Positions 2-43,607 of a stretch of 64,000 nucleotides of DNA are shown here, one piece after another. Within the stretch, counting starts at the first letter, position 1. Each line of letters starts with the position of its first letter. The position numbers were made by a program, and so were the translations under genes. The notes beneath the pieces were generated by a model. The model saw only the letters and a program-made list of their open reading frames with translations. It was not told the DNA's origin and searched no databases. The DNA is from Prochlorococcus marinus str. MIT 9215 (GTDB lineage Bacteria > Cyanobacteriota > Cyanobacteriia > PCC-6307 > Cyanobiaceae): contig NC_009840.1 in NCBI RefSeq assembly GCF_000018065.1, forward strand, positions 1,240,001 through 1,304,000, given 5' to 3'.

Positions 2-1171
2 ATTAAAAGCATAAAAAAAGTAATTGGGCCTTTTCAAGAAAATGAAAATATAAATCTTCATGAACCCGATCTTATCGATACTAATGCTAATAGTTATCTG
101 AAAAATTGTGTTGATACTAATTGGGTAAGTAGTGCGGGAGAATGGGTTAAAGAATTTGAAAAATATTTATCAGCTTATACGGGTGCAAAATACGTTATTG
201 CTGTATCCAATGGAACTGTAGCATTAAGATTGGCCCTTCATGGTATGGGTGTCAAAGCTGAAGAAGAAGTATTGATTCCTCCTTTAAGTTTTGTAGCTAC
301 TGCAAATGCAGTCTCGCATCTAGGAGCAACTCCGCACTTTATAGATATCGAATCAGAAACTCTTGGAATGTGCCCTCAAGCACTTGAAAGAAGATTAAAA
401 GAAATTGCTATAAAAAAAGGAAAATTTTTATTTAATAAATTAACAGATAAAAGAATATCGGCTGTTATGCCAGTACATGTATATGGTTTGCCGGCAAAAA
501 TGATTGAAATAAAGAAAATTTGCTTAGAATGGGGAATTCCCCTAGTAGAAGATGCAGCCGAAGCTTTAGGAAGCTGGATAGTCGATAACGATAATAGTTT
601 TAAGCATTGTGGTTGTTTTGGGGATGTAGGAACTATTAGTTTTAACGGCAATAAAATAATTACTACTGGCGGAGGTGGCGCTCTTCTTACTAATAACGAA
701 CAAATTGCAACCCATTGTAGACATATTTCTACTACAGCAAAGATAAAACATCCTTGGGATTTCTACCACGATCAAATAGGATGGAATGATCGAATGCCTA
801 ATCTCAATGCGGCCTTGGGTGTTGCTCAAATGGAAATATTAGAAACTATAGTTGAGAAGAAAAGAAGATTATACAAATGTTATAAAAAAAATTTCCAGGA
901 TATTGAAATTGCAGAAATAATAGGCGAGAGTAAAAATTCAAAAAGTAATTATTGGCTTGTTACATTAAGATTAAAAGGAAATCTTGATGACAATTTAAAA
1001 TCGAATATCCTTCAACAAGCTCACGATTTAAAAATTCTACTTAGGCCTTCTTGGCGTTTATTAAGTGAACTACCGATGTACTCTAATTCCCCATTTGGAG
1101 ATTTAAGTGAATCATTTAATCAATCAAAAAGACTAATTAATTTACCTAGTAGTCCTAAACTTATAAAGTGA
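2..1171 (+). CDS. LegC-family PLP-dependent aminotransferase (5' end outside window)
   Basis: The reading frame is open from base 2 with no start, so the gene is cut by the left edge. The upstream residues (VGPFQ-like N-terminus, NWVSSAGEWV, YVIAVSNGT) read smoothly into the part after the first ATG at 230. This is a DegT/DnrJ/EryC1 fold-type I aminotransferase. The PLP lysine is expected in the FNGNKIITTGGGG motif (codon 653-655), and HVYGLP and VEDAAEALGS are typical of the family. The LegC/PglE subgroup makes 4-amino sugars on UDP-linked 6-deoxy-hexoses on the way to legionaminic acid or bacillosamine. The next gene is a NeuC/LegG-type 2-epimerase, which fits that pathway. The exact sugar is inferred; the family call is firm. 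Confidence 0.9.
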   Translation: MKSIKKVIGPFQENENINLHEPDLIDTNANSYLKNCVDTNWVSSAGEWVKEFEKYLSAYTGAKYVIAVSNGTVALRLALHGMGVKAEEEVLIPPLSFVATANAVSHLGATPHFIDIESETLGMCPQALERRLKEIAIKKGKFLFNKLTDKRISAVMPVHVYGLPAKMIEIKKICLEWGIPLVEDAAEALGSWIVDNDNSFKHCGCFGDVGTISFNGNKIITTGGGGALLTNNEQIATHCRHISTTAKIKHPWDFYHDQIGWNDRMPNLNAALGVAQMEILETIVEKKRRLYKCYKKNFQDIEIAEIIGESKNSKSNYWLVTLRLKGNLDDNLKSNILQQAHDLKILLRPSWRLLSELPMYSNSPFGDLSESFNQSKRLINLPSSPKLIK

Positions 1172-1241: not shown

Positions 1242-2357
1242 ATGAAGAAATTTACAATTTTTACAGGTACAAGAGCTGAATATGGATTGTTGAAGTATTT
1301 AATTAAAGCATTAACTATTGAGAAAGATTTTGAAACTAATTTGATAGTAGCTGCATCTCATTTGAGTCCAAAATTTGGAGAAACTATTAATGAAATTAAA
1401 GTTGATGGAATTGAGCCGAGTTTTTATATTCCATTAAGAATAGATTCTGAAGAAAATGGGATGTGTCTTCAAACTGCAGACATAATGATTGAGGTTTCAA
1501 AAGTATTAAAAGAATTAAATCCTGATTATTTAATTTTGCTTGGTGATAGATTTGAGACTTTTGGAACTGCTGCTGCTGGACATTTACTAGGAATAAAAAT
1601 AATACATATTCATGGAGGTGAAAGCACCTTAGGTGCTATTGATGATAAGTTAAGGCATGCAATATCCCAATTGAGTACTTTACACTTTACTTCTGCCAAA
1701 GTGCACAAAGAAAGAGTCGAGAAAATGGGGTTTCCCCAAGATAAAGTTTTTAATGTTGGACCAATGGCCATAGATGGGATTTTAAATACTATAGAGTTAA
1801 ATAAAAAAGAATTTTCAAGAAAAACGAACTTTATATTTGGACAAAATAATTTCTTAGTCACATTTCATCCTGAAACTCTTTCCTCTGATCTAGGCATGGA
1901 GGGGTTAGATAATTTACTGAAAGTTTTAAAAGAAATAGATTGCAATATACTCTTTACTTCTCCAAATGCAGATAAAGGTTTTGAATTGATTTTAAAAAAA
2001 ATAAAGGCATTTGTAATCGAAACAAAACCAAAAAGTATTTTTATTCCATCTCTTGGCCAAGAGCTATATTTGAATGCATTGAGGTTATTAGATTGCGTAA
2101 TTGGAAATTCTTCTAGTGGAATAGTAGAAGCCCCACTAATTGGGGCAAATATAATTAATATTGGAAATAGACAAGAAGGAAGGTTTAGATTTGGTAAAGT
2201 TATTAATGTGAATAAAAATTATTATTCAATTAAAAATGCAATTAATAATTCTGTTAGTAAATCTAGAACAATAGATAATAAAAATAATTTTTCTGAATAT
2301 AAAAAATTAAGATCACCATCCAAAGCTATATTAGATGTTCTTAGAAATTATGATTAA
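1242..2357 (+). CDS. UDP-N-acetyl-sugar 2-epimerase (hydrolysing), NeuC/LegG type
   Basis: A 371-residue member of the UDP-GlcNAc 2-epimerase superfamily. It begins with the GTRAEYG signature, followed by HIHGGE (about residue 125), a LVTFHPET segment and the GNSSSGIVEAP nucleotide-binding loop near the C-terminus. The AEYG and HGGE wording points to the hydrolysing NeuC/NnaA/LegG branch, not to WecB. That branch releases a free ManNAc-type sugar from the UDP donor to feed a NeuB synthase. It lies 70 bp after the LegC-type aminotransferase on the same strand, so the two probably make the 6-deoxy-diamino-mannose precursor of a legionaminic-type acid. NeuB and NeuA enzymes are present further along the island. 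Whether it acts on UDP-GlcNAc or UDP-diacetylbacillosamine cannot be told from sequence alone. Confidence 0.9.
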   Translation: MKKFTIFTGTRAEYGLLKYLIKALTIEKDFETNLIVAASHLSPKFGETINEIKVDGIEPSFYIPLRIDSEENGMCLQTADIMIEVSKVLKELNPDYLILLGDRFETFGTAAAGHLLGIKIIHIHGGESTLGAIDDKLRHAISQLSTLHFTSAKVHKERVEKMGFPQDKVFNVGPMAIDGILNTIELNKKEFSRKTNFIFGQNNFLVTFHPETLSSDLGMEGLDNLLKVLKEIDCNILFTSPNADKGFELILKKIKAFVIETKPKSIFIPSLGQELYLNALRLLDCVIGNSSSGIVEAPLIGANIINIGNRQEGRFRFGKVINVNKNYYSIKNAINNSVSKSRTIDNKNNFSEYKKLRSPSKAILDVLRNYD

Positions 2358-17070: not shown

Positions 17071-18048
17071 TTATTTAGAATTCACTATCCAATTTGGCTC
17101 TATGCCTTTCAAACTCAATCGAATATTCTTCATACAATTGCTAAGAGCTTTCTTATAAATATCTATAGTTGAACCAGCAGTGTGAGGAGTACAGACAACA
17201 TTAGGTAGATTTAAATAATGTTCAAATCCAGTAGTGGGTTCAAATTCATAAACATCGAACCCAGCCCCAAGAATCTCTTTTTTGGCTAATTTCTTATATA
17301 AATAATCTATATCTATCAATTGAGATCTTGATACATTAATGATAATTGAATTTTTTTTCATTAAATCTATTTCTGATTTACCAATTATTCCTTTTGTTTC
17401 TTTATTTAAATGCATATGAAGAGTAATAAAATCTGAAGTTTGCATTAATTCATCCATATTACATTTTTTTAGTTGGAGCGTATTAATTAGATCTTGGGAA
17501 GGCTCAAGTGGATCAACATATAAAATTTCCATTCCAAAAGATTTTGCCCTTTTAGCAACTTCTCTACCAATATTTCCTAAACCAATTATCCCTAATTTTT
17601 TTTCATGAAGCATAACCATATCTAAACCATGTGAATTTCCAGGCCACATTCCATTGACAACTCTTTGATGTCCTTCGACAATTTTTCGAGATGTAGCCAA
17701 AAGTAAAAGAATAGTATGTTCTGCGACTGATATAGCGTTAGAACCTCCATTATTTGCAACTGGAATATTATATTTAGAAGCACCATCAATATTAAACTTA
17801 TCAAACCCAGAACTCCAGAGTTGCATAAGTTTAATATGTTGAGCCTCGCAAAGAATTTCATTATCAAGAAATCTTCCAGGTGCGAATAATATTACATCCG
17901 ACCATTTTATTTTTTTTATTATTTCCTCTTTAGTTTCTGAATAAAAACATAATTTATAAGAGTAACCTTCATTTTGGATATATTTAATTACTAGACTTCT
18001 CAAATCTTGAGGTATACGATCAGCTAAAAAATAAAGTAAGTTTGCCAT
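17071..18048 (-). CDS. D-isomer-specific 2-hydroxyacid dehydrogenase
   Basis: A 325-residue NAD-dependent dehydrogenase of the SerA/GhrA superfamily. The cofactor motif GIIGLGNIGREVAKR is followed by VDP, and the catalytic triad is seen in INVSRSQL (Arg), GAGFDVYEFEP (Glu) and VCTPHTAGST (His). Such enzymes interconvert 2-keto and 2-hydroxy acids. Between a HAD phosphatase and NeuA, it may act on a keto acid linked to nonulosonate synthesis, or on the 2-keto group of such a sugar; this is inference. The gene is 13 bp after the HAD gene and clearly in the same operon. Confidence 0.88.
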   Translation of the reverse strand: MANLLYFLADRIPQDLRSLVIKYIQNEGYSYKLCFYSETKEEIIKKIKWSDVILFAPGRFLDNEILCEAQHIKLMQLWSSGFDKFNIDGASKYNIPVANNGGSNAISVAEHTILLLLATSRKIVEGHQRVVNGMWPGNSHGLDMVMLHEKKLGIIGLGNIGREVAKRAKSFGMEILYVDPLEPSQDLINTLQLKKCNMDELMQTSDFITLHMHLNKETKGIIGKSEIDLMKKNSIIINVSRSQLIDIDYLYKKLAKKEILGAGFDVYEFEPTTGFEHYLNLPNVVCTPHTAGSTIDIYKKALSNCMKNIRLSLKGIEPNWIVNSK

Positions 18049-18061
18049 AAAGAATTAATAA

Positions 18062-18694
18062 TTAAGTTAACAAGTAATTTTCTTTTATATTTTTCATGTC
18101 GGAGATTAAATTTTTTTCTCCATTCAATTCAAGGGTACCATTTTTAAGTCCAATAAATTCACACCCTATTTCATTTGCAGCTTCAAGGTCATCTATTCCA
18201 TCTCCAATCATTATTATCTCATTTGGTTTAGTCTTTGTTAAATCTAATATTCTTATTAAATTTTTTACTTTTGAATTAGGTCTACCAAATATTCCATCAA
18301 AATCATAACTAAATACTAACCCTACCAAATCAATTAAATCTTTTTCAGGAGTTGCACTATTTACAAAAACTTTTTTTTTACTTAAGAATAATTCCGAAAG
18401 TAAGGCTTCAGGACCTTCCCTTTTAGAACATTCCTTTATCTTTCTTTTACATAAACTAGTATATTCTTTAGCTAAATTTAAATAACTTTCATCAATCTTG
18501 TAATATTTACAAAATCTTTCAAAAATAGTATATCTATCATAATTTTGAGGAGAACTTAATAATTGATTTAAATAACCCCTATCAAGTTCATATCTTGAGC
18601 AAACTTCAAAGAAATTATCTCTTTTTAAATTATTTGAATTTATTAATGTCCCATCAAAATCAAAAACAAAAATGGAATAACTTATTCTATTCAC
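18062..18694 (-). CDS. HAD-superfamily phosphatase
   Basis: A 210-residue HAD hydrolase. Motif I is FDFDGTLINS (nucleophile and acid Asp residues), motif II is VNSATPEKD, and motifs III/IV are visible as KTKPNEIIMIGDGIDDLEAA. A helical cap lies between motifs I and II, like phosphoglycolate phosphatase. Its start overlaps the stop of the NeuB-cupin gene by one base. The likely role in this operon is to remove phosphate from a sugar or nonulosonate phosphate, as Neu5Ac-9-phosphate phosphatase does, but the substrate is a guess. Confidence 0.87.
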   Translation of the reverse strand: MNRISYSIFVFDFDGTLINSNNLKRDNFFEVCSRYELDRGYLNQLLSSPQNYDRYTIFERFCKYYKIDESYLNLAKEYTSLCKRKIKECSKREGPEALLSELFLSKKKVFVNSATPEKDLIDLVGLVFSYDFDGIFGRPNSKVKNLIRILDLTKTKPNEIIMIGDGIDDLEAANEIGCEFIGLKNGTLELNGEKNLISDMKNIKENYLLT

Positions 18695-20229
18695 TATTTT
18701 GAACTTGGGATCTGATATCTCCCCCAGTGATCTACTGTTGTCTTTCTTTCATCTCTTTTCATTTTTTGGATTTTTTTATCCTTATAAATAGAATCATTGT
18801 TAAAGTGTGTTGTTGAAACCTCTTCAACAATAGCTCCAATTTCAGTACTAAAACTATGCCAAACCCCAGGCAAAACTAGACATGTATCTCCTGGTCTTAA
18901 TACTCTTGTATGGTCATCTATATGTATAGTCATTTCACCATAAAGAACTTGAAATGTTTCTTCTTTTAAACGATGGTGATGATATGGGTGTTTTTGTCCT
19001 GGTAATTGAATAAGCAATTTTTTACAGTATTCCCTGTTTATACAGTTAATTATTACAACTCCAAATTCTTTAAAATTCTCAATCCCATAATGATGAGAAT
19101 ACTCTACTTCAAATTCACTATTTAGTTTAATTTGCGCCTGATTTAAAAGTGCCTTTACTTCATGAACTGCAGATTTCAAAACCTGCATTTTTAACTTTTC
19201 AGGTATTGATATATTTTTATATTTCACCGAATTGTTAAGTCTAATTTCATCAGTAGTCTTAATACCCTCCTTCCATTCTCCAGACTTAAGCTGACCTTCT
19301 TCATAAGGCATTGCAAAAAAAACTTGACTTCTTTTTAAAGTTGTCCCAGCCTTAATATTTTCTTTTGCATACACTCCTCTTGATAAAAGGTCTATAGACT
19401 CTACTTCTAAGGAAGGACGACCTTCTAATTTTTTCACTCCACATAAGTTAACTGCTTTTTTATAAGCTGTTATCCATTTTTGTAATTGCTCGGGGGTTGA
19501 AGAATAAGAATTAAGTTTTATATTATCTGTCTCGATACCTACATGTCTCTCAAATATCTTTGCCCCCTTTGCAACAGCTATTGATATTGGGCATGTATCG
19601 TCGGGATCTTCATGAGTAGACCAACCAATTACTCTGTCAGGATATCTTTTTTTAAGAAAATCAATTTGATCTAAATAAAAATTATTTTCTGGTATTGGAT
19701 AAATTGAAATACAGTGCATGATGGCAAATTCACATCCTTGATGAGTAAAAAAGCTTACAAGATCATCTATTCCAGAAATTGATAACCCACCTGTTGAAAA
19801 TATAATCGGCAATCCAGATTCGGGGAATTTTTCTAATAAAGGCCAATCTTTAGCTGAGCAGCTTGCCAACTTAATAAGATCAAAACCCATTTTTGTAATT
19901 ATTTCTACAGACTCTTCGTCAAAAGGAGTGCACATCGTCAATAAGTCATATTTCTTTGCTTCATCAAAAAGTAATTGAAAATCATTTTGATTTAATTTTG
20001 TTGATAAGAATCTATTTATATGTTTATTATCACTATTCTCTTTATGACTAGGATGAATAAAGCTATCTAATTGACGATATTGAAATTTAAAAACTCCTCT
20101 AATTCGATTCTTCTTGCAAAGCTGACCTATATTTTTAATAATTTTTAAAGCATGATTTACATCTCCTTGATGGTTATTTGCTAAATCAAATACAAATAAA
20201 TTATTAAAATCAAAAGTTTTTATATTCAT
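18694..20229 (-). CDS. NeuB-type nonulosonate synthase fused to SAF and cupin domains
   Basis: A 511-residue three-domain protein. Residues 1-270 form a NeuB TIM barrel (FDLANNHQGDVNHAL, MCTPFDEESVEII, HCISIYPIPENN, GWSTHEDP, FERHVGIE). Residues about 283-337 form the antifreeze-like SAF domain (GVYAKENIKAGTTL). Residues about 388-475 form a cupin with likely metal ligands His417-419, Glu423 and His458. The synthase condenses PEP with a sugar or sugar phosphate. The TIM barrel differs from the classical NeuB at 38078 (for example LANNHQ in place of AGVNHNG). I chose the ATG at 20229, because the longer form would overlap the Gfo/Idh gene and has an unrelated N-terminus. It sits between the Gfo/Idh gene (4 bp) and the HAD gene (1-bp overlap). 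Confidence 0.88.
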   Translation of the reverse strand: MNIKTFDFNNLFVFDLANNHQGDVNHALKIIKNIGQLCKKNRIRGVFKFQYRQLDSFIHPSHKENSDNKHINRFLSTKLNQNDFQLLFDEAKKYDLLTMCTPFDEESVEIITKMGFDLIKLASCSAKDWPLLEKFPESGLPIIFSTGGLSISGIDDLVSFFTHQGCEFAIMHCISIYPIPENNFYLDQIDFLKKRYPDRVIGWSTHEDPDDTCPISIAVAKGAKIFERHVGIETDNIKLNSYSSTPEQLQKWITAYKKAVNLCGVKKLEGRPSLEVESIDLLSRGVYAKENIKAGTTLKRSQVFFAMPYEEGQLKSGEWKEGIKTTDEIRLNNSVKYKNISIPEKLKMQVLKSAVHEVKALLNQAQIKLNSEFEVEYSHHYGIENFKEFGVVIINCINREYCKKLLIQLPGQKHPYHHHRLKEETFQVLYGEMTIHIDDHTRVLRPGDTCLVLPGVWHSFSTEIGAIVEEVSTTHFNNDSIYKDKKIQKMKRDERKTTVDHWGRYQIPSSK

Positions 20230-20233
20230 TTTA

Positions 20234-21319
20234 TTAATACGAGAAAGCTTTATAATTATACCCGACCGAATAATCAATAAATACATTTTTTTTGATCTTA
20301 TTAGAAAGAAAACCAGCCCCAATAACTAACATTGTGTTCAACCCATTTCGTAGTGATATTGGAGATATTTCTTTGTAATTAAGATTATTTTGGATATGTT
20401 TTAGTTCAACTATAAAATCCTCAGGTCTAGATTTTTTAAAGACAATTTCCTCCATTTCTGAATTAATATTATTTGTAACCAAGTCAGAATTTTCTTTATA
20501 TGAACAAAGCCACTCTAGATAAGCATCTCCAGATTGAATCCTAGCTTTTTTTGAAGAAGGCTTGGTAATTACATCTTGTACAACCCTTCCCGTAAAGTTT
20601 TTTTCTGTTTTTAAATTAAAAAAAGCACATTTGTCATATTTAACTTTATCTTCAACAAAAAAATCCATCATGGCTTGCACTTCAACAATCTGACCTTTAC
20701 CAAGTACCTGGGAAAAGTACTGCCACAGATTTAATGCATGAGAATGTTCACAGGTTGACCCTCCTCCTAATTCTGAATAACCAAGATAACTATCACCAGG
20801 ACCATTTAACCAAGGATGAGCATTAAAAATACCACCCCAATGTTCTCTAAATTGTACATCTAAAGTTTCCCAGACTATATCTTCATTGGAGATACATTTT
20901 GAAAGGAAAAGCTGAGTAGATTCAGCAAGTGTATGATCATACCCTACATAAACCGGTATATTTTTATCTTCAGAGAAAGCCACTAAATCATCAGCACCAT
21001 TCAAATCAGGTGTACATAAAGGCTTTTCAATTAATATGCCTTGAGGATTTTCTTTTAAAGCCTCTATTGCAAGAGGAATATGAAATTTAGGTGGAGTTCC
21101 AATAAATATTAAATCGTATATACCTTTAGGAGCTTCATGATTCAAATAGAGGCCAATCTTTTCATCCCACTTTTTGTATCTTGAGGGATAAATAAGATTT
21201 TTTGTTCGCTCAAGTGCATCATTACTAATATCACAAATATCCACTTCCCATCCTAATGATCTTGCTGCATTAGATAAGTGGTTTCCTATGGAACCTGCTC
21301 CAAATATTTTTACTCTCAT
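20234..21319 (-). CDS. Gfo/Idh/MocA-family oxidoreductase
   Basis: A 361-residue protein with an N-terminal Rossmann fold (KIFGAGSIGNHLS, then VDICDIS) and the ILIEKPLCTP segment carrying the conserved Glu-Lys-Pro. The C-terminal half has the usual mixed sheet, including GELGGGSTCEHSHALNLW-like residues in which the histidines may bind substrate. Such enzymes oxidise or reduce sugars or nucleotide sugars with NAD(P). It is 26 bp after the ABC exporter gene and 4 bp before the NeuB-cupin, so it probably prepares or modifies the synthase's sugar substrate. A different family member is encoded at 33679. Confidence 0.88.
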   Translation of the reverse strand: MRVKIFGAGSIGNHLSNAARSLGWEVDICDISNDALERTKNLIYPSRYKKWDEKIGLYLNHEAPKGIYDLIFIGTPPKFHIPLAIEALKENPQGILIEKPLCTPDLNGADDLVAFSEDKNIPVYVGYDHTLAESTQLFLSKCISNEDIVWETLDVQFREHWGGIFNAHPWLNGPGDSYLGYSELGGGSTCEHSHALNLWQYFSQVLGKGQIVEVQAMMDFFVEDKVKYDKCAFFNLKTEKNFTGRVVQDVITKPSSKKARIQSGDAYLEWLCSYKENSDLVTNNINSEMEEIVFKKSRPEDFIVELKHIQNNLNYKEISPISLRNGLNTMLVIGAGFLSNKIKKNVFIDYSVGYNYKAFSY

Positions 21320-25809: not shown

Positions 25810-26685
25810 ATGTTAAAAAAGTTAAAATGCATGTTCAACAAACTTAGACTTGGTAATTATAACCATAGAAAACTAGCTTCTATAATTTTTCTTATATTGG
25901 TTTTCCCAAAATATTTATACAGGTTTTTTATTTGGAAGAAAAAATATAATTTAAGAAATATAAATTCATCTTTTAAGAGAAAATTTAAAAAAGATGGATA
26001 TGTACTGCTTCCAAAATCATTTATCAATTCAGAAAATATATTAAAAGAATGTGATGAAATTATAAAAAAATTTAAATCTTTAGAAAATCGCAAAAAGAAA
26101 AAGAAAAGTCATTTAATTCAAGTACTTGAACCAAAATCAATATTAGAAAATAGTTCCATAATTTCTTTTGTAAGTAACAAATATATATTGGATATTGTGT
26201 CCTCCTATTTAGGACATATTCCTTGCTTGACACATGTAAATATATGGTATTCGCCAAATATTAGTTCAAAATGTGCAGAAGGTAGTCAACTATGGCATTT
26301 AGATCATGAATCATTTAAACAAGTTAAAGTCTTCCTCTATTTAAATGATATTGATGAGAATAATGGTGCGACAGAGATCTTCAATAAAAAATATACAAAA
26401 ATAATGCAAAAAAAATTATCTTATAGCCTCCTAAAAAAGAAACATAGTAATGAAGGATTAGATAATAATTTATGCTTTAAACTAAGTGCAAAGAGAGGTG
26501 GGATTGCTGTTATGGATACAAGCAGCTGTTTTCATCGTGGCTCCTACGGTTTTAACAAATCAAGATTTATATTATCTGTTCAATATCTACCTATAAATGC
26601 TTATAGCTATAACAAATTTAATGAATATACATTCCTAAGTAAAAGTTATCATCTTAAAGATAAAAAGGAATTAATTTTTAATTAA
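25810..26685 (+). CDS. PhyH-family Fe(II)/2-oxoglutarate dioxygenase
   Basis: A 291-residue protein. The double-stranded helix core shows SQLWHLDHESFKQVKVFLYLND, in which His and Asp of WHLD are metal ligands. The distal CFHRGSYG histidine and the downstream KSRFILSVQY arginine bind iron and 2-oxoglutarate. N-terminal residues 15-50 are basic and partly hydrophobic. Such enzymes hydroxylate lipids, sugars or amino acids. A second member (297 aa, 36957) shares the same core wording. It begins a plus-strand block that is divergent from the uronic acid operon; 232 bp separate them. Confidence 0.87.
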   Translation: MLKKLKCMFNKLRLGNYNHRKLASIIFLILVFPKYLYRFFIWKKKYNLRNINSSFKRKFKKDGYVLLPKSFINSENILKECDEIIKKFKSLENRKKKKKSHLIQVLEPKSILENSSIISFVSNKYILDIVSSYLGHIPCLTHVNIWYSPNISSKCAEGSQLWHLDHESFKQVKVFLYLNDIDENNGATEIFNKKYTKIMQKKLSYSLLKKKHSNEGLDNNLCFKLSAKRGGIAVMDTSSCFHRGSYGFNKSRFILSVQYLPINAYSYNKFNEYTFLSKSYHLKDKKELIFN

Positions 26686-35044: not shown

Positions 35045-36925
35045 TTAAAAAAATAATTCATACCATTTTGAAAGACATAAAAATTGCCAAATCAAAACGG
35101 AATTATTAGGAGTACTTTCTTGATTATAAAAATCATTAATTAATAATTTAATTTGTTTTTTTTCTAATCCTAAGTTTTCAGATAATTTATTTTCATCAAT
35201 AGTACTTAAGACGAATTCTTTTAAATCTTTAAAAAGCCATTCTCTCTGAGGATCGACTACATGTTTTTTTACTTTTGATGAAGAATGGATTTTTGGGTTC
35301 TCTACCATTTTTAAAGCATTCAGGAAAAACCCCCTATGTAAACCATTATGAACTTTATGTTTTGGATTAATACTTCTTGCAAACTTTACTAGAGAAGGAG
35401 CAAGAATTGGGACTCTAAGTTCTTTTGAGAATAACATCGAGCACATATCACATGACCTTAGAACTCTTTGTAATTTATTCATAAATAAATCATCATCTAA
35501 AACCTTTTGAAACTCATTAGTTGATTTAGCATTAAAAAAATAATCACTTTTAAAACTATCTTTTTTTTGAATATTTTCCATACTCATTCTGAATTTCTCA
35601 TTTATGATGCTAGTACCATCTGCAGATGAATTTAAGCCAAATAACTTGCTCTGTGAATTAATAATTAATTTATAAATTTGATTCTTATTTAAATTATTAA
35701 TTAAAGAGTATTGTTCTACAAATTGATTAAAATCAAAATCAATGTCTTCATTAAGACTATATTTAACAAAAGCTCCTAAAGTATATCTATAAGCTCCACC
35801 TATTTCATCACCACCTTGGCCCTCTAAAAAGATCCTATTAGATTTAATTGAAGCTTTTTTATACATATTATATTTTGCAATAGTTGGTAAACCAGGGAAA
35901 GGTTGCTCTAAAGCAAGTAATATCTCATCAAAATCATTAAGAAAATCATTTTTTTGAAGAGTAACTATGTTGTGTTTTAAATTATAAAAACTGGTTATTT
36001 TATTTATATTTGCCAAATCATCATCTAAATGATCTTGATATGAATAACTCCAAGAATTTTCAACATTACTAATTGTTCCACATTTTGCCAACGTAGAAAG
36101 CATAATTCTAGAATCACTTCCACCACTAATTGCAACATTAATAGGTAAATCTGTTTGAGTCTGAAGTTTCATTGACTCGGTTAATTTAAATAAAAATTCT
36201 CTACTAACTTCTTCATAGGTATCTTTATTTTCTTCATAACTATAATCGTAATATATAGATTTAAAGGTTGAATTACCCAACTGCGAGATAATCATACCAG
36301 GTTGAACTTTATAAATCCCCTCAAAAAACGTTAATTCTGAATGATCATATTTTGATAAACTAATATATTCTATTGATGCTCTATAACTTGGAACAATACT
36401 TATTCCAAGTTTTTTACATGTTAATAAGATAGGTTTTATTTCTGAAGAGAATATTAAAAAATCTTTATTTTGGAAATAATAAATAGGTTTTACACCTATA
36501 GGATCTCTTAGAAGAGATAATTTTTTTTCATTTTTGTTATAGTTGGCAATTGCAAATATGCCTTCAAATTGATTACATACATTATGTCCAAATTTTTCTA
36601 TTAACTCAGTTACTACCTCAGTATCACAATCAGTTTTAATTTCATATGAAAATTTATTAGCAAGTTTTCTAAAATTATAAATTTCTCCATTAAAACCGAT
36701 AATATTTTGTCCACTATTTGAATGATATGGCATGTCAGAATCATTTCTCCTGCCCGTAATTTTTAATCTGACAGAAGCTAATTTTATATTGTTATCCTCA
36801 TACCAGTGACAACCATCTGGACCTCTATGAATTAATAGTTGACTAATTTCTGATTTAAAAAACTTATCCACAAAAGAAGAATCAGAATCATTTGATTTAT
36901 TATAAATTCCAAAAAAGCCGCACAT
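35045..36925 (-). CDS. Glutamine-hydrolysing asparagine synthetase family protein
   Basis: A 626-residue AsnB-like protein. Cys2 (MCGFFGIY) starts the N-terminal glutamine amidotransferase domain, with HRGPDG and FNGEIYNF motifs following. The synthetase domain has the PP-loop AISGGSDSRIML near residue 268 and the GQGGDEIGGAY segment. These enzymes adenylate a carboxyl group and amidate it with ammonia from glutamine. Many island paralogues modify uronic or nonulosonic acids, not aspartate, and a carboxylate-to-amide conversion on the glycan is plausible. It is 31 bp after a PhyH gene and downstream of the neuD-neuB cassette. Confidence 0.88.
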   Translation of the reverse strand: MCGFFGIYNKSNDSDSSFVDKFFKSEISQLLIHRGPDGCHWYEDNNIKLASVRLKITGRRNDSDMPYHSNSGQNIIGFNGEIYNFRKLANKFSYEIKTDCDTEVVTELIEKFGHNVCNQFEGIFAIANYNKNEKKLSLLRDPIGVKPIYYFQNKDFLIFSSEIKPILLTCKKLGISIVPSYRASIEYISLSKYDHSELTFFEGIYKVQPGMIISQLGNSTFKSIYYDYSYEENKDTYEEVSREFLFKLTESMKLQTQTDLPINVAISGGSDSRIMLSTLAKCGTISNVENSWSYSYQDHLDDDLANINKITSFYNLKHNIVTLQKNDFLNDFDEILLALEQPFPGLPTIAKYNMYKKASIKSNRIFLEGQGGDEIGGAYRYTLGAFVKYSLNEDIDFDFNQFVEQYSLINNLNKNQIYKLIINSQSKLFGLNSSADGTSIINEKFRMSMENIQKKDSFKSDYFFNAKSTNEFQKVLDDDLFMNKLQRVLRSCDMCSMLFSKELRVPILAPSLVKFARSINPKHKVHNGLHRGFFLNALKMVENPKIHSSSKVKKHVVDPQREWLFKDLKEFVLSTIDENKLSENLGLEKKQIKLLINDFYNQESTPNNSVLIWQFLCLSKWYELFF

Positions 36926-36956
36926 TTTAAATTAAATAATTTATTTTATGTAAATT

Positions 36957-37850
36957 TCATTTCAGAAATCTAGTATTGATTCCTAATAACAAATCTGGCT
37001 TTTGCTTTTCAATATGTCTATCCCAAGCACAATAGTGAAATAGCAATATAAATCGATCGTTACTGGAACGATTATTACTTCCCTGATGAATACATAAACC
37101 AGTATTTGCTATAAGTGTTGTTCCTGGAACTCCAATATTAGAACCATGTTTTTCTTTAGCATAATATGCAAACTTTTTTTTATCCATGTAAAGTCCTTTC
37201 ACACCTTTAGCAATATTATTTCTACGGAAAACTCTTCTAAAAAAAGAGTTCTTTAGAAGCTTGATTGAATGATTAGAAGCAATAATTCTTGTAGGGCCCA
37301 TTTCCTCAGTGATTTCAGATAAATTAATAAAGACTTTAATAGTTTTTAATGAGTACCTATCAATATGCCATAGTTGGCTTCCTTTTGGGAAATTATCATT
37401 AACTGAATTTCCTGGCGATCTATATATCCCACCTCCGATAAAACCAAGTTTACCAAAAACAGACTCTAAATCATCTCTAAGTAAACTGTTACTTCCTATA
37501 TTTAAGAATTTCTGATAGTACTCACCACCTATTTGATCATTGAGAAAATTATAAAAATAAGGTTTACTTCTTCCTATACTTTCAAATTTATGATCATCAA
37601 TCTTTTTTATATAAGGGAGGAATTCTTTATACAAGTCTTCAGAATAAGTTTTTACATAACCTTGTTTTTTTAATAGTTTAGCATCAAAATCTATACGAAA
37701 ATTCATCTTCTTTAGATGTTGTAGAGCTTCAGGTTTGCGAAAAAAATAACTACAAATATCCTTAAAATATCCAGTTAAATAAGGGCTACAAGTCCATTTT
37801 GAAATGAACTCTAATATTATATCTAAATAACTAAGATACCTGTTAAACAT
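36957..37850 (-). CDS. PhyH-family Fe(II)/2-oxoglutarate dioxygenase
   Basis: A 297-residue protein. The metal site is SQLWHIDRYSLKTIKVFIN (His-x-Asp) with the distal ligand and 2-oxoglutarate arginine in CIHQGSNNRSSNDRFILLFHY. It is a diverged relative of the 291-aa PhyH protein at 25810, sharing SQLWH-D...KVF-NL and the TTLIA/MDT-type distal strand. It would hydroxylate a carbon in a sugar, lipid or amino-acid substituent. It stands between the neuB of the amidotransferase cassette (with a short remnant between) and a third AsnB gene. Confidence 0.87.
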   Translation of the reverse strand: MFNRYLSYLDIILEFISKWTCSPYLTGYFKDICSYFFRKPEALQHLKKMNFRIDFDAKLLKKQGYVKTYSEDLYKEFLPYIKKIDDHKFESIGRSKPYFYNFLNDQIGGEYYQKFLNIGSNSLLRDDLESVFGKLGFIGGGIYRSPGNSVNDNFPKGSQLWHIDRYSLKTIKVFINLSEITEEMGPTRIIASNHSIKLLKNSFFRRVFRRNNIAKGVKGLYMDKKKFAYYAKEKHGSNIGVPGTTLIANTGLCIHQGSNNRSSNDRFILLFHYCAWDRHIEKQKPDLLLGINTRFLK

Positions 37851-38077: not shown

Positions 38078-39085
38078 TTATAAATCTATAAGATCATTAA
38101 TTTGATAATCTTTAGAAGATTTTCTTCCAATAACAAAATCTAAAAAATTAGCAGGCAATCCATTTCCAGGCCTTTTTGTTGTGACGTTTTCCTGAGTAAA
38201 TAGCTCCCCCTTATTTATAAATTGAGAAGCCACAAGCGATTTTCTCATAATTAGTCTCATTTCTATTTCTTTTTGAGTAGGTTTTTTAAAATTGCTGCCC
38301 AAAGAATCTTCAATATTTCTAATAGACTTGACCATTCTTGAAAACTCTTCTGGTTCAATACTAGCTTTGTGATCAGGTCCCTCTAATTTTCTATCTAAGG
38401 TTATATGTTTTTCAATAATCTTTGCTCCAAGAGCTACTGCCGCTATTGGGACTTCAATCCCAAGTGTATGATCTGAGTAACCAACATTAACATTAAATGA
38501 GTTAGCTATTGTATTCATTGCTCTTAAGTTAACTTCAGGAAAAGCAGTTGGGTATTGAGTTGTACAATGTAAAACAGTTATATTATTTAGAGGCGTTCCA
38601 GCATCGCAAATGGTATCTAAAGCATACTCTACTTCTCCTAAAGTAGCCATACCAGTTGAGAGGATTACTTCTTTGCCAAGCAAACCAATATTTCTTAAAA
38701 AGAATGTATTATCAACTTCACTTGAAGGTACTTTAAATCTTTCTAAGCCTAATTTTGACAATAAAGAAATACTTTTAATATCGAATGGTGTAGATAAAAA
38801 CTCAATATTATTTTCATTACATTTTTTAATTAAAAATAAATGGTCATCAGGAGAAAGCTCTAATTTTTTTAACATTGAATATTGATCAAGTGAATTATTT
38901 TCATTATCTATCTGATATTTAGCTTTAATTGATTTTTGAGTTATTCCATCGTCAGCAAAAAATGTTTGAAACTTGACAATATCTGCCCCAGCTTTTGAAG
39001 CTTCCTTGATTAAATCTACAGCCATATCAAGCGATCCATTATGGTTTACTCCAGCTTCAGCGATTACTAAGACTTTTTTTTTCAC
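38078..39085 (-). CDS. neuB: N-acetylneuraminate/legionaminate synthase
   Basis: A 335-residue classical NeuB. AEAGVNHNGSLDMAVDLI, DIVKFQTF, FLSTPFDIKS, RFKVPSSEV, ILSTGMATLGEV, LHCTTQYPT, VGYSDHTLG and EKHITLDRKLEGPDHKAS are all present. The C-terminal SAF domain (RKSLVASQFINKGELF) completes the protein. It condenses PEP with a 2-acetamido mannose-type sugar to give a nonulosonic acid. It starts 4 bp inside the ACP gene's 3' end, the last link of an overlapping five-gene chain. The product identity (Neu, Leg or Pse type) depends on the upstream sugars; the LegC/LegG pair at 1-2357 favours a legionaminic-type acid. Confidence 0.95.
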   Translation of the reverse strand: MKKKVLVIAEAGVNHNGSLDMAVDLIKEASKAGADIVKFQTFFADDGITQKSIKAKYQIDNENNSLDQYSMLKKLELSPDDHLFLIKKCNENNIEFLSTPFDIKSISLLSKLGLERFKVPSSEVDNTFFLRNIGLLGKEVILSTGMATLGEVEYALDTICDAGTPLNNITVLHCTTQYPTAFPEVNLRAMNTIANSFNVNVGYSDHTLGIEVPIAAVALGAKIIEKHITLDRKLEGPDHKASIEPEEFSRMVKSIRNIEDSLGSNFKKPTQKEIEMRLIMRKSLVASQFINKGELFTQENVTTKRPGNGLPANFLDFVIGRKSSKDYQINDLIDL

Positions 39086-39348
39086 GTTTTGCTTATTATC
39101 AGTAAAATCATTTTATTAATGGAACCCATTTTTTCATAAGTAATTTCATCATCTTCAATTCTTACATTAAATTCATTTTCTAAGAACTCTACTAGCTCTA
39201 TAACTCCCATAGAATCTAATAAACCTATTTCATAAAGAGATTCATCCTTTGGCAAAGTTAACTCATTAAATTCAGAAGGAAAATTATTTAAAATATATTT
39301 AACAATTTTATTATTTATTTCCTCGTTATATTTTTCAGAGGTAGTCAT
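39082..39348 (-). CDS. Acyl carrier protein
   Basis: An 88-residue ACP-like protein. The phosphopantetheine attachment serine is Ser46 in LLDSMGVIELVEFLE, preceded by an acidic first helix and followed by FNVRIEDDEIT, the usual helix II/III pattern. Its start overlaps the upstream AsnB gene by 14 bp and its stop overlaps neuB by 4 bp. An ACP dedicated to this operon suggests that an acyl or aminoacyl group is carried here as a thioester before being transferred to a sugar, or that an acid is activated on it. It is not in a fatty-acid gene context, so a housekeeping role is unlikely. Confidence 0.9.
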   Translation of the reverse strand: MTTSEKYNEEINNKIVKYILNNFPSEFNELTLPKDESLYEIGLLDSMGVIELVEFLENEFNVRIEDDEITYEKMGSINKMILLIISKT

Positions 39349-41344
39349 TTGAAAAAATAATTTTTTTAAAGAAAGCGTTTATATCATAATCTAAAGTTGT
39401 TTCATCTTTATGTAAATTTTTAAAATTATTTTCAAACAATAAAGTTGTAATAATTAATGTACTTATTATACAATCTTGATTTGATGCTCTTTTATTAGAA
39501 AAATTGCTATAAATAATTTTTTTTCTTATTGTATCCACCAAGGTTTTATTGAAAACGCCTACTCTATCAAGGTTTTCATCTGAAATTAAATGTTCATACA
39601 ATTCTTTATTGTTTTTATTTGTGAAACAGGATTGTATTACTCCTATATCTGGAGATTGATATGCAACCTTTTTTCTATTAACAATTTCAGGAGGAATTAA
39701 GTTTTCAAACGACTTTCTTAGAATAAATTTATCTTTTAAACCATTAAGTCTTTGCTCTTTTGGAATTGACAATACTAATTTTGCAAAGTCATCATCAATA
39801 AATGGATATCTACCTTCGACACTATTAGCCATACTCATTCTGTCTCCTTGGCTACTTAATAGGTAGCTAGATAGAAGAATCCTTAATTCCAAATATTGTG
39901 ATTTTTCGATGTCATCGAGTTCATTAAAAATTTGCCAGTCAAAAGTATCATCTTCCATAATTGAATATGAATCACCCTTTTTAAATGGATTCGCTAGATA
40001 TCTAAGTAAATTTTGATTTGATTTCCAACGCCTATCTAAGCCAAAAAAATCTTTATTTAAGTTCTCATTCAAGTAGCTATCATAGATTATCTTTCTAAAC
40101 CTTGGATTTTGATATTGCGGCATATAAGCATATAAACTTCCAAGCATTAATTGATTTAATAAAGAATTTGGATTTTTTTGAATTCTTTTTTTTATTTTTA
40201 TTTCTCTAAAGATGTCATAACCTAAAAAAAGTTCATCAGAGCCTTCTCCTGTAAAAACGACTTTAATTCCATTTTCATTTACTACTTTAGATAAAAGCAT
40301 TAAAGGAACTGGAGCGGTACGAAAGATTGGTTGCTCAATATGATAAATAGCCTTTTCTAAATTTTTTGCTATCTCATTGTCGTCTAACTTTAATGTAATA
40401 TTATCAAGTTCTAAGTTTTTGATTACTTTATTCTGTGCAGATCCTTCAGAATAAGAACTATTTTGAAAGTCTATTGAAAAGGTTTTTAATTCATTATTAT
40501 TTTTTTTTGCGGCATAGCATAGTGCACTTGAATCAATACCTCCAGAAAGATAAGCACCTATCGAAACATCTGAAATTGATTGTCTTTTTACTGATAAATC
40601 AAATTGATTTCTTAATTCAGAAGGTGTAATATCTATTTTTTCTTTGCTATTCCTCTGAATAAATTCGGCAGCATCCCAATATTTTGTTTTATTAATTAAT
40701 TTAGTTTCCAAGTCAAATATTAATAATTCACCTGGCAATAAAGAAAAAATATTTTTAAAAGAAGTATTTCTTCCTAAAGGTGCCCAATAAGTCAAGATTT
40801 CAGGAAGAATTTCATCATTCAAATTAAATTCAACATATGAACTCGAAACTATACTTTTAATTTCAGATCCAAAGAAAAAGCCATTTTCATTTAATGAATA
40901 AAACATCGGTCTTATTCCAAATCTATCTCTAGCGAGGATTAATTTATTTTTATTCAAATCTAAAATTGATATTGCAAATTGACCTTTTAATTCCTTTAAA
41001 AAATCAAAATCTCTTTTCATATAACTTGATATTATTGAATCACCCTCTAAATTTCTAAATTGTTTATTTAACAACTTTTTCGCTTGGTACTTCTCATTAA
41101 GCTCTTTGAAGTTAAAAATCTCTCCATTAAAAACGCAAATTATTTTATTTGAATTATCACTAAATGGTTGGACACCATTTTGAAGACCATTAATACTTAA
41201 CCTCGCATTACTTAAACAACAATTATTTGAAATAAAGGCTCCATATTCATCTGGACCTCTATGTTTTAAGGAACTAATCATTCTGACAATGCATTCCTCT
41301 TTATTTCTTATTTTATTTGATACGAAACCTGTTATTCCACACAT
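39335..41344 (-). CDS. Glutamine-hydrolysing asparagine synthetase family protein
   Basis: A 669-residue AsnB paralogue with both domains intact. Cys2 (MCGITGFV), HRGPDEYG, FNGEIFNF and RDRFGIRPMFY define the amidotransferase half. The PP-loop is LSGGIDSSAL at residues 267-272, and FTGEGSDELFLGY follows in the synthetase half. It should hydrolyse glutamine and amidate an adenylated carboxyl group. It overlaps the truncated AsnB-like gene by 1 bp and the ACP gene by 14 bp, which strongly indicates a joint function; the amide acceptor could be a carboxylate on the ACP or on the nonulosonic acid. Confidence 0.9.
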   Translation of the reverse strand: MCGITGFVSNKIRNKEECIVRMISSLKHRGPDEYGAFISNNCCLSNARLSINGLQNGVQPFSDNSNKIICVFNGEIFNFKELNEKYQAKKLLNKQFRNLEGDSIISSYMKRDFDFLKELKGQFAISILDLNKNKLILARDRFGIRPMFYSLNENGFFFGSEIKSIVSSSYVEFNLNDEILPEILTYWAPLGRNTSFKNIFSLLPGELLIFDLETKLINKTKYWDAAEFIQRNSKEKIDITPSELRNQFDLSVKRQSISDVSIGAYLSGGIDSSALCYAAKKNNNELKTFSIDFQNSSYSEGSAQNKVIKNLELDNITLKLDDNEIAKNLEKAIYHIEQPIFRTAPVPLMLLSKVVNENGIKVVFTGEGSDELFLGYDIFREIKIKKRIQKNPNSLLNQLMLGSLYAYMPQYQNPRFRKIIYDSYLNENLNKDFFGLDRRWKSNQNLLRYLANPFKKGDSYSIMEDDTFDWQIFNELDDIEKSQYLELRILLSSYLLSSQGDRMSMANSVEGRYPFIDDDFAKLVLSIPKEQRLNGLKDKFILRKSFENLIPPEIVNRKKVAYQSPDIGVIQSCFTNKNNKELYEHLISDENLDRVGVFNKTLVDTIRKKIIYSNFSNKRASNQDCIISTLIITTLLFENNFKNLHKDETTLDYDINAFFKKIIFSNDYL

Positions 41345-42609
41345 TATTTTTGATCTCTATATCTTCCACCAATTATAAATTTGTTTAAATCAGGAATAGA
41401 AATTTTATAAATATTGCAGAATAAATTTTTTAAAGTTTCTGCATTTATCCCATTTCTATGAAAAACTCCTAACAAGCCTCCATGATTATCCCCATTTTGA
41501 GCCCTAGTCTTGGCTTTTCCTACAAGATTTTTTAATCTTGTAGGCAATAAAAATTGATTAAATTTATATTTAAAATCTTTATCTTCAAAATTTTCAATAC
41601 CAATTTTTTCATAACAGTCATATAGAGAGCTATAGGGTTGAAAACACTTAATATTAAAGTTTTCAAAAATTGCTATTTCTCTATTTGAAGTATCCAAACC
41701 TCTTTTGAAAAATCTTCTTCTAGAACTCCTTTTAATTTTTAATTGAGGATAATATATTTGGTTTTCATAAATGACCTCTGTATAGTCTGCAAAATACTCA
41801 TTCATCAAGTCACCAGTAAGTACTACAGTATTTTGAGGAAAATTTCTACTAATATATTGGGCAATTTCATAGTTAAATGAAGCACAATGAACATTGAAAT
41901 CTCTCCAATCGCAACATAATCTTATTACATTATTCAAGGAATTTAAAACATCCTCCTCTCTTAAATAAAATTCAGATATTTTTACTCCTAACTCTTTTGC
42001 AACTTCTTTTGCTCTCTTACAATCATTATTATCAGATTTAAGGTCATATTTGCTATCTAAGTTATGTTTTACTCCACAAGTTATAAACTCTATATTTGAT
42101 AAGTACTTGCTTGAATTATATGCAACAACTGTAGAATCTAATCCACCAGAGAGAAGGATAACTTTTTTAAAATCTTTAAATTTAGTTTCTAAATTAACAA
42201 AGTATTTTTCAATCCTATATTTGATTAATTCTTTTATTGTCAATTCATCTTTATTGCCTAAATGGTCATTGAAATAATCAAGATTTTTTTTATTTTGAAT
42301 GAAAGTGATATTTGGTTTTTCATCTTCCCCAGCTTTTAAAATACACTTTTCACCAGGTGTTATTGAATAAATATTATTTAGATGAATATCTTTTTCTATA
42401 AATTCATACAAATTGGAAGAAAAAATTATTTCATCTTTTTTTTGACTATAAAAAAGCTTACAAATTCCTAAAGGATCTCTTACACATATGAATTCTTTGT
42501 TTTTTAAAAAAAAAGCTGAGAATTGTCCATAAAGGAATTCATCAATTCTTTCAAAATCAAAAGTTACCTCTTCAAAATTTGCATTTAAAATAAATTGAGA
42601 AATATTCAT
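41344..42609 (-). CDS. Asparagine synthetase-like protein lacking the glutaminase nucleophile
   Basis: A 421-residue protein. Residues 44-54 (RDPLGICKLFY) align with about 139-149 of the neighbouring complete AsnB, so about 95 N-terminal residues are missing, including the catalytic Cys. The synthetase PP-loop is intact (LLSGGLDSTVVAY, SGGLDS at 154-159), and VVLTGDLMNEYFADY replaces the usual GEGSDE-type loop. It therefore cannot generate its own ammonia from glutamine and may use free ammonia, an amine, or ammonia from the AsnB partner. It resembles beta-lactam-synthetase-like relatives in lacking the glutaminase. It overlaps neuD by 4 bp and the complete AsnB by 1 bp. Confidence 0.85.
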   Translation of the reverse strand: MNISQFILNANFEEVTFDFERIDEFLYGQFSAFFLKNKEFICVRDPLGICKLFYSQKKDEIIFSSNLYEFIEKDIHLNNIYSITPGEKCILKAGEDEKPNITFIQNKKNLDYFNDHLGNKDELTIKELIKYRIEKYFVNLETKFKDFKKVILLSGGLDSTVVAYNSSKYLSNIEFITCGVKHNLDSKYDLKSDNNDCKRAKEVAKELGVKISEFYLREEDVLNSLNNVIRLCCDWRDFNVHCASFNYEIAQYISRNFPQNTVVLTGDLMNEYFADYTEVIYENQIYYPQLKIKRSSRRRFFKRGLDTSNREIAIFENFNIKCFQPYSSLYDCYEKIGIENFEDKDFKYKFNQFLLPTRLKNLVGKAKTRAQNGDNHGGLLGVFHRNGINAETLKNLFCNIYKISIPDLNKFIIGGRYRDQK

Positions 42610-43226
42610 AAACTTAAAATTCTCAAAGATCCATTTATTGATACTACTTTAGAATTGCTAGGAACATTTTTCATAATTGTTATTCCTGGAGCTATTAAAC
42701 AGTTATCGCCAATTGATATTCCAGGCAAAATTGTAGATCCAGTAGATATCATAGAAAACTTCCCAATTTTACAGTCTCCCAATAATTTTACATTAGGAGC
42801 TAAAAAACAACTTTCACCGATTTCTACTCCATGTCCTATTAAAGTGCCATAAGAAATTACGGAGTAAGAATCAATTTCTGCAAATGAAGAAATAGTAACC
42901 AAAGGATAAACTATTACGCCTTTCCCAATATTTGCTGATTTAAAAATTCTAGAAGACTTATCTATTAATTTCGATATAGTACCACCTTTTTTTAAGATAT
43001 TATTAGTAATTTCGTGTCTTTTCTTATTTGATTTCAAAGCCAGAAAATATTCACAATTTTGTATATTTTCTACATTAAGATAATCATGCCCTATCCAATT
43101 AATTGAAGAATATTTCTCCCAAAAATTCTTTCTAACTAAAGAAGAGTAATTTATATAGTAATTTTTTGTATTTTCAAGAAATAAATCTAACAAATCATCA
43201 GGACCTATTATTACGGCATGACGCAT
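42606..43226 (-). CDS. NeuD-family sugar O-/N-acyltransferase
   Basis: A 206-residue left-handed beta-helix protein with hexapeptide repeats in residues 90-200 (GKGVIVYPLVTI, IGESCFLAPNVKLL, IGKFSMISTGSTI, ISIGDNCLIAPGITIM). The N-terminal 80 residues form the pyridine-nucleotide-like PglD domain (HAVIIGPDDLLDLFL). Such enzymes move acyl groups from acyl-CoA, or sometimes ACP, to a sugar amine or hydroxyl. It is the first gene of the overlapping cassette and has a -10-like site upstream. The ACP downstream raises the possibility that acyl-ACP is its donor here. Confidence 0.88.
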   Translation of the reverse strand: MRHAVIIGPDDLLDLFLENTKNYYINYSSLVRKNFWEKYSSINWIGHDYLNVENIQNCEYFLALKSNKKRHEITNNILKKGGTISKLIDKSSRIFKSANIGKGVIVYPLVTISSFAEIDSYSVISYGTLIGHGVEIGESCFLAPNVKLLGDCKIGKFSMISTGSTILPGISIGDNCLIAPGITIMKNVPSNSKVVSINGSLRILSL

Positions 43227-43336: not shown

Positions 43337-43492
43337 ATGAATTTAAGAATAGGCATTGTAGGTTATTGGAATATTGCAAGAAGGTATATAAAAATAATAG
43401 AAAATATACTTAAATCTAATAATATTAATTTTCAAATTTTAGTAATAAAATCAGGTCAAAATCTATATGAAAAGACAAATCTCAAAATATAA
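43337..43492 (+). pseudogene. Truncated N-terminus of a Gfo/Idh-type oxidoreductase
   Basis: A 51-codon frame begins MNLRIGIVGYWNIARRYIK and ends after SNNINFQILVIKSG and a few more residues. This is the first Rossmann unit of an NAD-dependent oxidoreductase (expected GYGNIAxRH; the second glycine is replaced by Trp). The rest of the gene is gone. It lies between the neuD cassette and the tRNA-Ala, at the island edge. Confidence 0.65.
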
Positions 43493-43534: not shown

Positions 43535-43607
43535 TGGAGCCAAGCGGACTCGAACCGCTGACCCCCTGCATGCCATGCAGGTGCTCTACCAGCTGAGCTA
43601 TGGCCCC
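43535..43607 (-). tRNA. tRNA-Ala(GGC)
   Basis: The minus strand forms a 73-nt tRNA with a 7-bp acceptor stem (GGGGCCA start), a DHU arm AGCTGGTAGAGC, an anticodon stem CCTGC/GCAGG around ATGGCAT (anticodon GGC), and a T arm with a normal 7-nt loop (TTCGAGT). No CCA is encoded. It marks the boundary between the surface island to its left and the core genes to its right. Its stems are all well paired, unlike those of the tRNA-Ser at 30351. Confidence 0.96.

Follow-up and report, generated by a model that had tools for sequence, protein, structure and literature searches.

In the legionaminic-acid (Leg) pathway, the LegB, LegC and nucleotidyltransferase set produces a nucleotide-linked 4-amino-4,6-dideoxy sugar, and LegH normally uses acetyl-CoA. 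Acetyl-CoA is also the donor of the NeuD-family enzymes characterised so far; LpxD uses acyl-ACP. An acyl carrier protein (ACP) and AsnB-like enzymes are found together in a glycan locus in the XrtA/PEP-CTERM exopolysaccharide set, the chemistry of which is, to our knowledge, also undescribed. A 4-hydroxybutanoyl substituent has reportedly been found in Yersinia ruckeri O1. An 18-gene legionaminic cluster is described for this organism (PMC5552943). Furthermore, AsnB homologues are proposed to act on ACP-bound acids in the malonamyl starter route of glutarimide polyketides (PMC7756379), and the range of unusual N-acyl groups on bacterial amino sugars is broad, including amino acids, dicarboxylic acids and oxoprolines (PMC10609480).

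Here, we analysed a 64-kb stretch (hereafter the window) of the genome of Prochlorococcus marinus MIT 9215, a single contig of 1,738,790 bp. In this window, five overlapping genes associate a NeuD-type acyltransferase and a NeuB synthase with an ACP and two AsnB-type enzymes, one of which is glutaminase-less (AsnB′). We consider it an even call whether this operon encodes the acylation and synthase part of a legionaminic-type pathway, with a dedicated carrier-protein route standing in for the usual N-acetyl donor. Nonulosonate synthesis and the idea of an AsnB acting with an ACP each have precedents; the combination of the two and the AsnB′-ACP family seem to be new. The original prediction knew of no described pathway with this gene set and, in agreement with it, we found no description combining nonulosonate, asparagine synthase and ACP genes in the open-licence literature.

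Gene content and genomic setting of the cassette

The five genes are carried by the minus strand in the order neuD, AsnB′, AsnB, ACP, neuB. The first one (42606..43226) encodes a left-handed beta-helix acyltransferase with a proposed LegH role, i.e. N-acylation of the 4-amino sugar. It is followed by the gene of AsnB′ (41344..42609), a glutaminase-less AsnB-fold amide ligase of 421 aa whose start overlaps neuD by 4 bp, and by that of a full AsnB-type glutamine-dependent synthetase (39335..41344), which overlaps AsnB′ by 1 bp. Next come the gene of a dedicated ACP (39082..39348; 14-bp overlap with AsnB) and neuB (38078..39085; GTG start, 4-bp overlap with the ACP gene), encoding a nonulosonate synthase with a proposed LegI role. 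The positions and overlaps of the genes are all as originally predicted, and the identities assigned to the five genes agree with domain searches, NeuD scoring below its curated cut-off.

A tRNA-Ala(GGC) gene (43535..43607, minus strand) lies immediately upstream of the cassette and marks the island edge. The G+C content falls from about 0.35 beyond this tRNA to about 0.27 on the cassette side, and the cassette is the first operon past it on the island side. A search of the 64-kb window for a further copy of the tRNA-Ala 3' end gave none, so that an attachment repeat of the island is not shown.

The other end of the island carries a Leg gene set (ptmE, ptmF, ptmB, ptmA, legB, legC and neuC). 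Two of its genes lie within the window on the plus strand: legC (2..1171), which encodes an aminotransferase and is located 37 kb from the cassette, and neuC/legG (1242..2357), which encodes a hydrolysing 2-epimerase scoring above the TIGR03568 cut-off. LegC, scored on a shortened ORF that lacks the N-terminus, is at the TIGR04181 cut-off (418.2 bits vs 420). The set continues upstream, just outside the window (locus L033), with homologues of ptmE, ptmF, ptmB, ptmA and legB; the LegB 4,6-dehydratase (L033:10974-11975) reaches 518.7 bits against TIGR04180 (cut-off 475).

This distant set includes neither an N-acyltransferase (LegH) nor a synthase (LegI). The cassette NeuD is the sole NeuD-type match of any strength in the genome (119 bits; next 59). 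Its best family is TIGR03570 (119.5 bits, below the cut-off of 160.8), the next one being LpxD, and the domain search found no PglD_N match in it. The cassette NeuB (461 bits against TIGR03569, cut-off 399.7, a better score than for PseI) is the only standard synthase of the genome; the other NeuB domain is part of a cupin fusion. The two functions that the distant set lacks are thus provided, as far as NeuD-type genes and standard neuB genes go, by the cassette alone, which would complete the legionaminic pathway. We thus propose, from these sequence matches, that the nonulosonate made is of the legionaminic type and that NeuD, the only candidate, takes the N-acylating place of LegH.

Residues and fold of AsnB′

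Single-sequence scans of viral contigs and genome contigs with AsnB′ found no relatives. The family was reached only with a profile built from the alignment of the window AsnB′ with a Kitasatospora relative, which recovered 15 further loci (17 in all). AsnB′ belongs to an undescribed family, represented here by 17 members from eight phyla. The same two-sequence alignment found nothing in viral contigs, so that a phage origin is not supported.

AsnB′ consists of an Asn_synthase domain and of the second half only of the glutaminase domain, the N-terminal half being gone, and its signature motifs are DWRDFNVH and TGDLMNE. We compared the 17 members with E. coli AsnB. The equivalents of Cys1, Arg49, Asn74 and Gly75 are absent from all 17, and the SGGxDS ATP loop and the equivalent of the catalytic Lys449 are kept in all 17. 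The family displays GDxxNE in place of the GEGSDE of AsnB, and DW(R)DFNVH at the position of its TTIRAS segment. Profile searches match AsnB, beta-lactam synthetase and carbapenam synthetase (CarA). Likewise, the AlphaFold model (mean pLDDT 83, pTM 0.86) matches CarA, beta-lactam synthetase and AsnB in Foldseek, with an E value of 7.5e-14 for CarA 1q15 and TM scores of 0.59-0.67 for the CarA and beta-lactam synthetase chains. Because of its residue content, profile matches and model fold, AsnB′ is very probably an amide ligase that acts by adenylation and does not generate ammonia itself.

As CarA and beta-lactam synthetase are its best structural matches, AsnB′ might cyclise an amino acid bound to the ACP, in the manner of beta-lactam synthetase, leading to an oxoprolyl-like N-acyl group. 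Amino sugars bearing N-acyl groups of the 5-oxoproline type are known from bacteria, marine ones among them (PMC10609480). However, the DWRDFNVH pocket motif is not common to the AsnB enzymes aligned with AsnB′, likeness of fold does not fix the nucleophile, and the additional AsnB would be superfluous; lactam formation thus seems very unlikely to us.

Distribution and gene neighbourhoods of AsnB′

The AsnB′ family is rare and its occurrence is sporadic. It was detected in one of 99 relatives of the window's genome and in one of 386 sampled cyanobacterial genomes, and was not found in the other Prochlorococcus-group genomes of these samples. Two alphaproteobacterial MAGs from Rhodospirillales, L003 and L010 (genome G100), are of particular relevance. 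Within the class of L003, a clear match is found in one of 385 genomes (its own), and within its order the family is found in 2 of 297. Another match from this class (G208; 92 bits, residues 28-277), considered as a second AsnB′, was judged to be an ordinary AsnB.

In L003, neuB, neuD, AsnB′, AsnB and ACP are contiguous within a Leg gene set, in the order legB-like dehydratase, legC, neuC, formyltransferase, PIG-L deacetylase, neuB, neuD, AsnB′, AsnB, ACP, ptmE-like and neuA; neuB is thus at the opposite end of the five-gene block compared with the window. The LegC proteins of the two genomes are 36% identical. That an unrelated genome has these five genes side by side as well shows that their grouping is more than chance. 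L010 displays the order AsnB-ACP-AsnB′ on a contig that also holds ptmE/F/B/A, legB/C/G, neuB and a WbuX-HisH-HisF amidation set. Hence, the form with AsnB, AsnB′ and ACP is accompanied by a Leg gene set in all three genomes that have it. Both Rhodospirillales genomes are MAGs with a gene order unlike that of the window, which counts against the model proposed below.

Beyond these loci, an ACP adjoins AsnB′ in 15 of the 17 loci, which represent eight phyla. The two exceptions are L008, where an NRPS protein (C-A-PCP) replaces the lone ACP, and L004, which has neither. The distance matrices of AsnB′ and ACP are correlated (Spearman 0.74, permutation p 0.0002), as is partly expected from common descent. 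The coupling of a dedicated carrier protein and AsnB-type enzymes to a nonulosonate pathway, as originally predicted, is therefore borne out by L003, L010 (same contig) and this pairing. The conserved co-occurrence anticipated with it holds for these loci but not across the cyanobacteria sampled.

Other enzymes frequently accompany AsnB′: an AMP-ligase in 11 of the 17 loci and a PLP enzyme in ten or eleven. In Virgisporangium (L016), a single ORF of 820 residues carries both the PLP and the AsnB′ domain. Some operons also contain genes for a sugar acyltransferase or a deacetylase, namely a CysE/NeuD-like protein in L005, whose AMP-ligase is closest to TIGR03098 (549 bits, cut-off 592), and a polysaccharide deacetylase in L002. 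No acid could be named from the amino-acid specificity codes read in the AMP-ligases next to AsnB′ (DYNATSM-F) and in the L008 NRPS (DVMHFCLIF). No AMP-ligase was found in the three Leg-linked loci (window, L003 and L010).

This absence, together with the loss of the ammonia source and the retention of the adenylation residues, would fit a role of AsnB′ as ACP loader: it would adenylate the acid, the phosphopantetheine thiol would attack in place of an amine, the full AsnB would amidate the ACP-bound acid and NeuD would transfer it. However, the 11 loci that have an AMP-ligase beside AsnB′ and ACP have one with the amino-acid-type Asp235, so that loading is already covered there. Moreover, we know of no precedent for thioester formation by an AsnB fold. 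Hence, we regard this role as unlikely.

The full AsnB and its carrier protein

The full AsnB scores 422 bits against TIGR01536 (cut-off 267). Its glutaminase is intact, with the Cys-Arg-Asn-Gly-Glu set (Cys1, Arg49, Asn74, Gly75 and Glu76) and the catalytic Lys, Asp98 being replaced by Glu, and its FRTAP pocket is common to the window, L003 and L010. Judged by these residues, it has what a glutamine-dependent asparagine synthetase requires, asparagine being a putative product. The ACP scores above the PF00550 cut-off and harbors a phosphopantetheine site (LDS46M, D-S motif) whose attachment Ser is conserved among its aligned homologues. Apart from it, a single other carrier protein was detected in the genome. 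A search with PF01648 found no phosphopantetheinyl transferase in this genome, though the fatty-acid ACP must be modified by something.

The four other strong relatives of the full AsnB in the cyanobacterial phylum are all found with the same ACP subfamily and with a NadE-like amide ligase that is glutaminase-less; two of the four also have an AMP-ligase. The full AsnB is thus accompanied by the ACP subfamily and by another PP-loop amide ligase devoid of glutaminase (AsnB′ in three cases, NadE-like in four) in 7/7 loci (window, L003, L010 and the four relatives), and four of these have no neuB in the stretch examined. Two AsnB relatives from the Prochlorococcus group (L059 and L060), considered as kin of the cassette, lie amid unrelated housekeeping genes without ACP and are therefore taken as plain AsnB.

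The original prediction offered two functions: an ACP-bound acid is made and attached to the sugar, or the nonulosonate carboxyl is amidated. The former is favoured here. The latter is less supported, since it leaves the ACP jobless and AsnB′-ACP pairs occur in loci without neuB. In its broader form, one AsnB would amidate the carboxyl of a nonulosonate or uronate, as in some O-antigens, and the ACP would act in a separate modification. The intact glutaminase of the full AsnB would suit such a reaction, and some O-antigens are known to contain uronic acids as primary amides (PMC10609480). However, the full-AsnB subfamily travels with the ACP subfamily in all seven loci, including the four without neuB, and five overlapping genes argue for a single joint function, which makes carboxyl amidation highly improbable.

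The acyl group could also be malonamoyl: the housekeeping FabD, as a candidate, would malonylate the ACP, the full AsnB would convert the product into malonamoyl-ACP and NeuD would transfer it to the sugar amine. In glutarimide pathways, malonamyl-ACP is the proposed product of AT-ACP-AsnB sets (PMC7756379), N-malonyl groups are known on bacterial amino sugars (PMC10609480), and such a route does not require an AMP-ligase. However, it leaves AsnB′ roleless, the cassette ACP is divergent and FabD is only a putative partner. We therefore consider it quite unlikely.

Proposed mechanism and significance

The most economical reading of the cassette is that the ACP would hold an acyl group, the AsnB-type enzymes would amidate it and NeuD would transfer it to the 4-amine. 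The LegB, LegC and nucleotidyltransferase set from the far end of the island would supply the nucleotide-linked 4-amino-4,6-dideoxy sugar. A small acid, possibly an amino acid, would be held on the phosphopantetheine of the cassette ACP. Domain searches recognised no ACP loader among the five cassette proteins and, as the Leg-linked operons have no AMP-ligase, loading may fall to AsnB′, FabD or a gene located elsewhere. One or both AsnB-type enzymes would then form an amide on the ACP-bound acyl group through carboxyl adenylation, the full AsnB using glutamine-derived ammonia and AsnB′ a free amine or an intramolecular reaction. We infer that NeuD would take over the completed acyl group from the ACP and place it on the 4-amine, the later N7 of the sugar, before NeuC and then NeuB finish the legionaminic-acid derivative.

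As pictured here, the module comprises an ACP and a PP-loop amide ligase devoid of glutaminase, joined either by a full AsnB or by an AMP-ligase and a PLP enzyme, and its job would be to build an amide-bearing acyl group on the ACP. More generally, and with slightly less than even confidence, we suggest that AsnB′ defines a so far undescribed family of amide ligases that depend on carrier proteins. Such a portable module would serve nonulosonate, amino-sugar and nonribosomal-peptide pathways of at least eight phyla, and the cassette would be its nonulosonate form.

If true, this would reveal a carrier-protein route for the decoration of sialic-acid-like sugars, surface determinants that phages and grazers see, and a new function for the asparagine-synthetase fold. 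Furthermore, the AsnB′-ACP pair points to glycan and natural-product operons, as yet uncharacterised, in Actinomycetota, Acidobacteriota, Myxococcota and Rokubacteria. The cassette also lends itself to experiment, because its five overlapping genes can be studied jointly with a single surface sugar.

Comparison with known systems

Beta-lactam synthetase and CarA share with AsnB′ the AsnB fold, a non-functional glutaminase and retained adenylation residues. However, AsnB′ lacks the N-terminal half of the glutaminase domain, has its own pocket motif and co-occurs with ACPs. The glutarimide starter module (AT-ACP-AsnB, e.g. SmdF/G/H and GdsB/C/D) also associates an AsnB homologue with a stand-alone ACP for a proposed amidation of an ACP-bound acid (PMC7756379), but it feeds a polyketide synthase, has an acyltransferase loader and has no glutaminase-less AsnB partner; unlike this module, the five genes of the cassette include no cognate malonyl acyltransferase.

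Among glycan systems, the XrtA/PEP-CTERM set (TIGR03098 AMP-ligase, AsnB-like amidotransferase and ACP) likewise places an ACP and AsnB-like enzymes in a glycan locus, but with a PLP decarboxylase and without AsnB′. Y. ruckeri O1 carries a Leg gene set within its O-antigen locus, in which, unlike in the cassette, no AsnB or ACP gene appears in the part of the source used here (PMC5552943). Finally, GDP-type Leg biosynthesis has the same LegB, LegC, NeuC/LegG, NeuB/LegI and PtmA-, PtmB-, PtmE- and PtmF-like genes, with NeuD here in the LegH slot. The locus of P. marinus differs from it in that the acyltransferase gene belongs to one overlapping series with those of an ACP and two AsnB-type enzymes, and in that the pathway genes are split between the two ends of the island.

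Other genes of the island

The island that holds the cassette carries a second nonulosonate- or KDO-type locus. It consists of a gene fusing a NeuB domain to a cupin (window positions 18694-20322) and its neighbours: an adjoining HAD gene (18062-18694), a Gfo/Idh gene beside the fusion (20234-21319) and, near it, 2-hydroxyacid dehydrogenase (17071-18048) and NeuA-like (16277-16993) genes. A third AsnB-type gene, whose product has all the glutaminase residues together with an unusual pocket, lies with the protein gene preceding it at 35045-37850. The preceding protein (36957-37850) has no match in Pfam and looks like a 2-oxoglutarate oxygenase; another protein without a Pfam match (25810-26685) resembles it. 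At the island edge, a short open frame of 51 codons (43337-43492), beginning MNLRIGIVGYWNIARRYIKIIENIL and facing tRNA-Ala, looks like the remnant of a Rossmann-fold oxidoreductase gene.

Carrier-protein modification and related loci

No PF01648 phosphopantetheinyl transferase was found in the whole MIT 9215 genome. Since this genome nevertheless has a fatty-acid ACP, its transferase must be divergent. In the Rhodospirillales locus L010, homologues of amino acid:[carrier protein] ligase (SerRS-like) and KAS III are encoded near AsnB* (L010:9182-11476), a possible means of loading the ACP in that genome.

In actinomycetes, the AsnB* operon L002:389-5234 adjoins Gfo/Idh, sugar aminotransferase and polysaccharide deacetylase genes, an arrangement common to L011 and L016, and the product of these operons is probably an acylated amino-sugar natural product. 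A PLP enzyme and AsnB* are naturally fused in a single 820-residue ORF of Virgisporangium (L016:6714-9176), which suggests that they work in succession. As for full AsnB, a cyanobacterial operon (L058:2064-9614) encodes it with a C-PCP-thioesterase protein, an ACP, an AMP-ligase and a NadE-like amide ligase, and looks like an uncharacterised natural-product locus.
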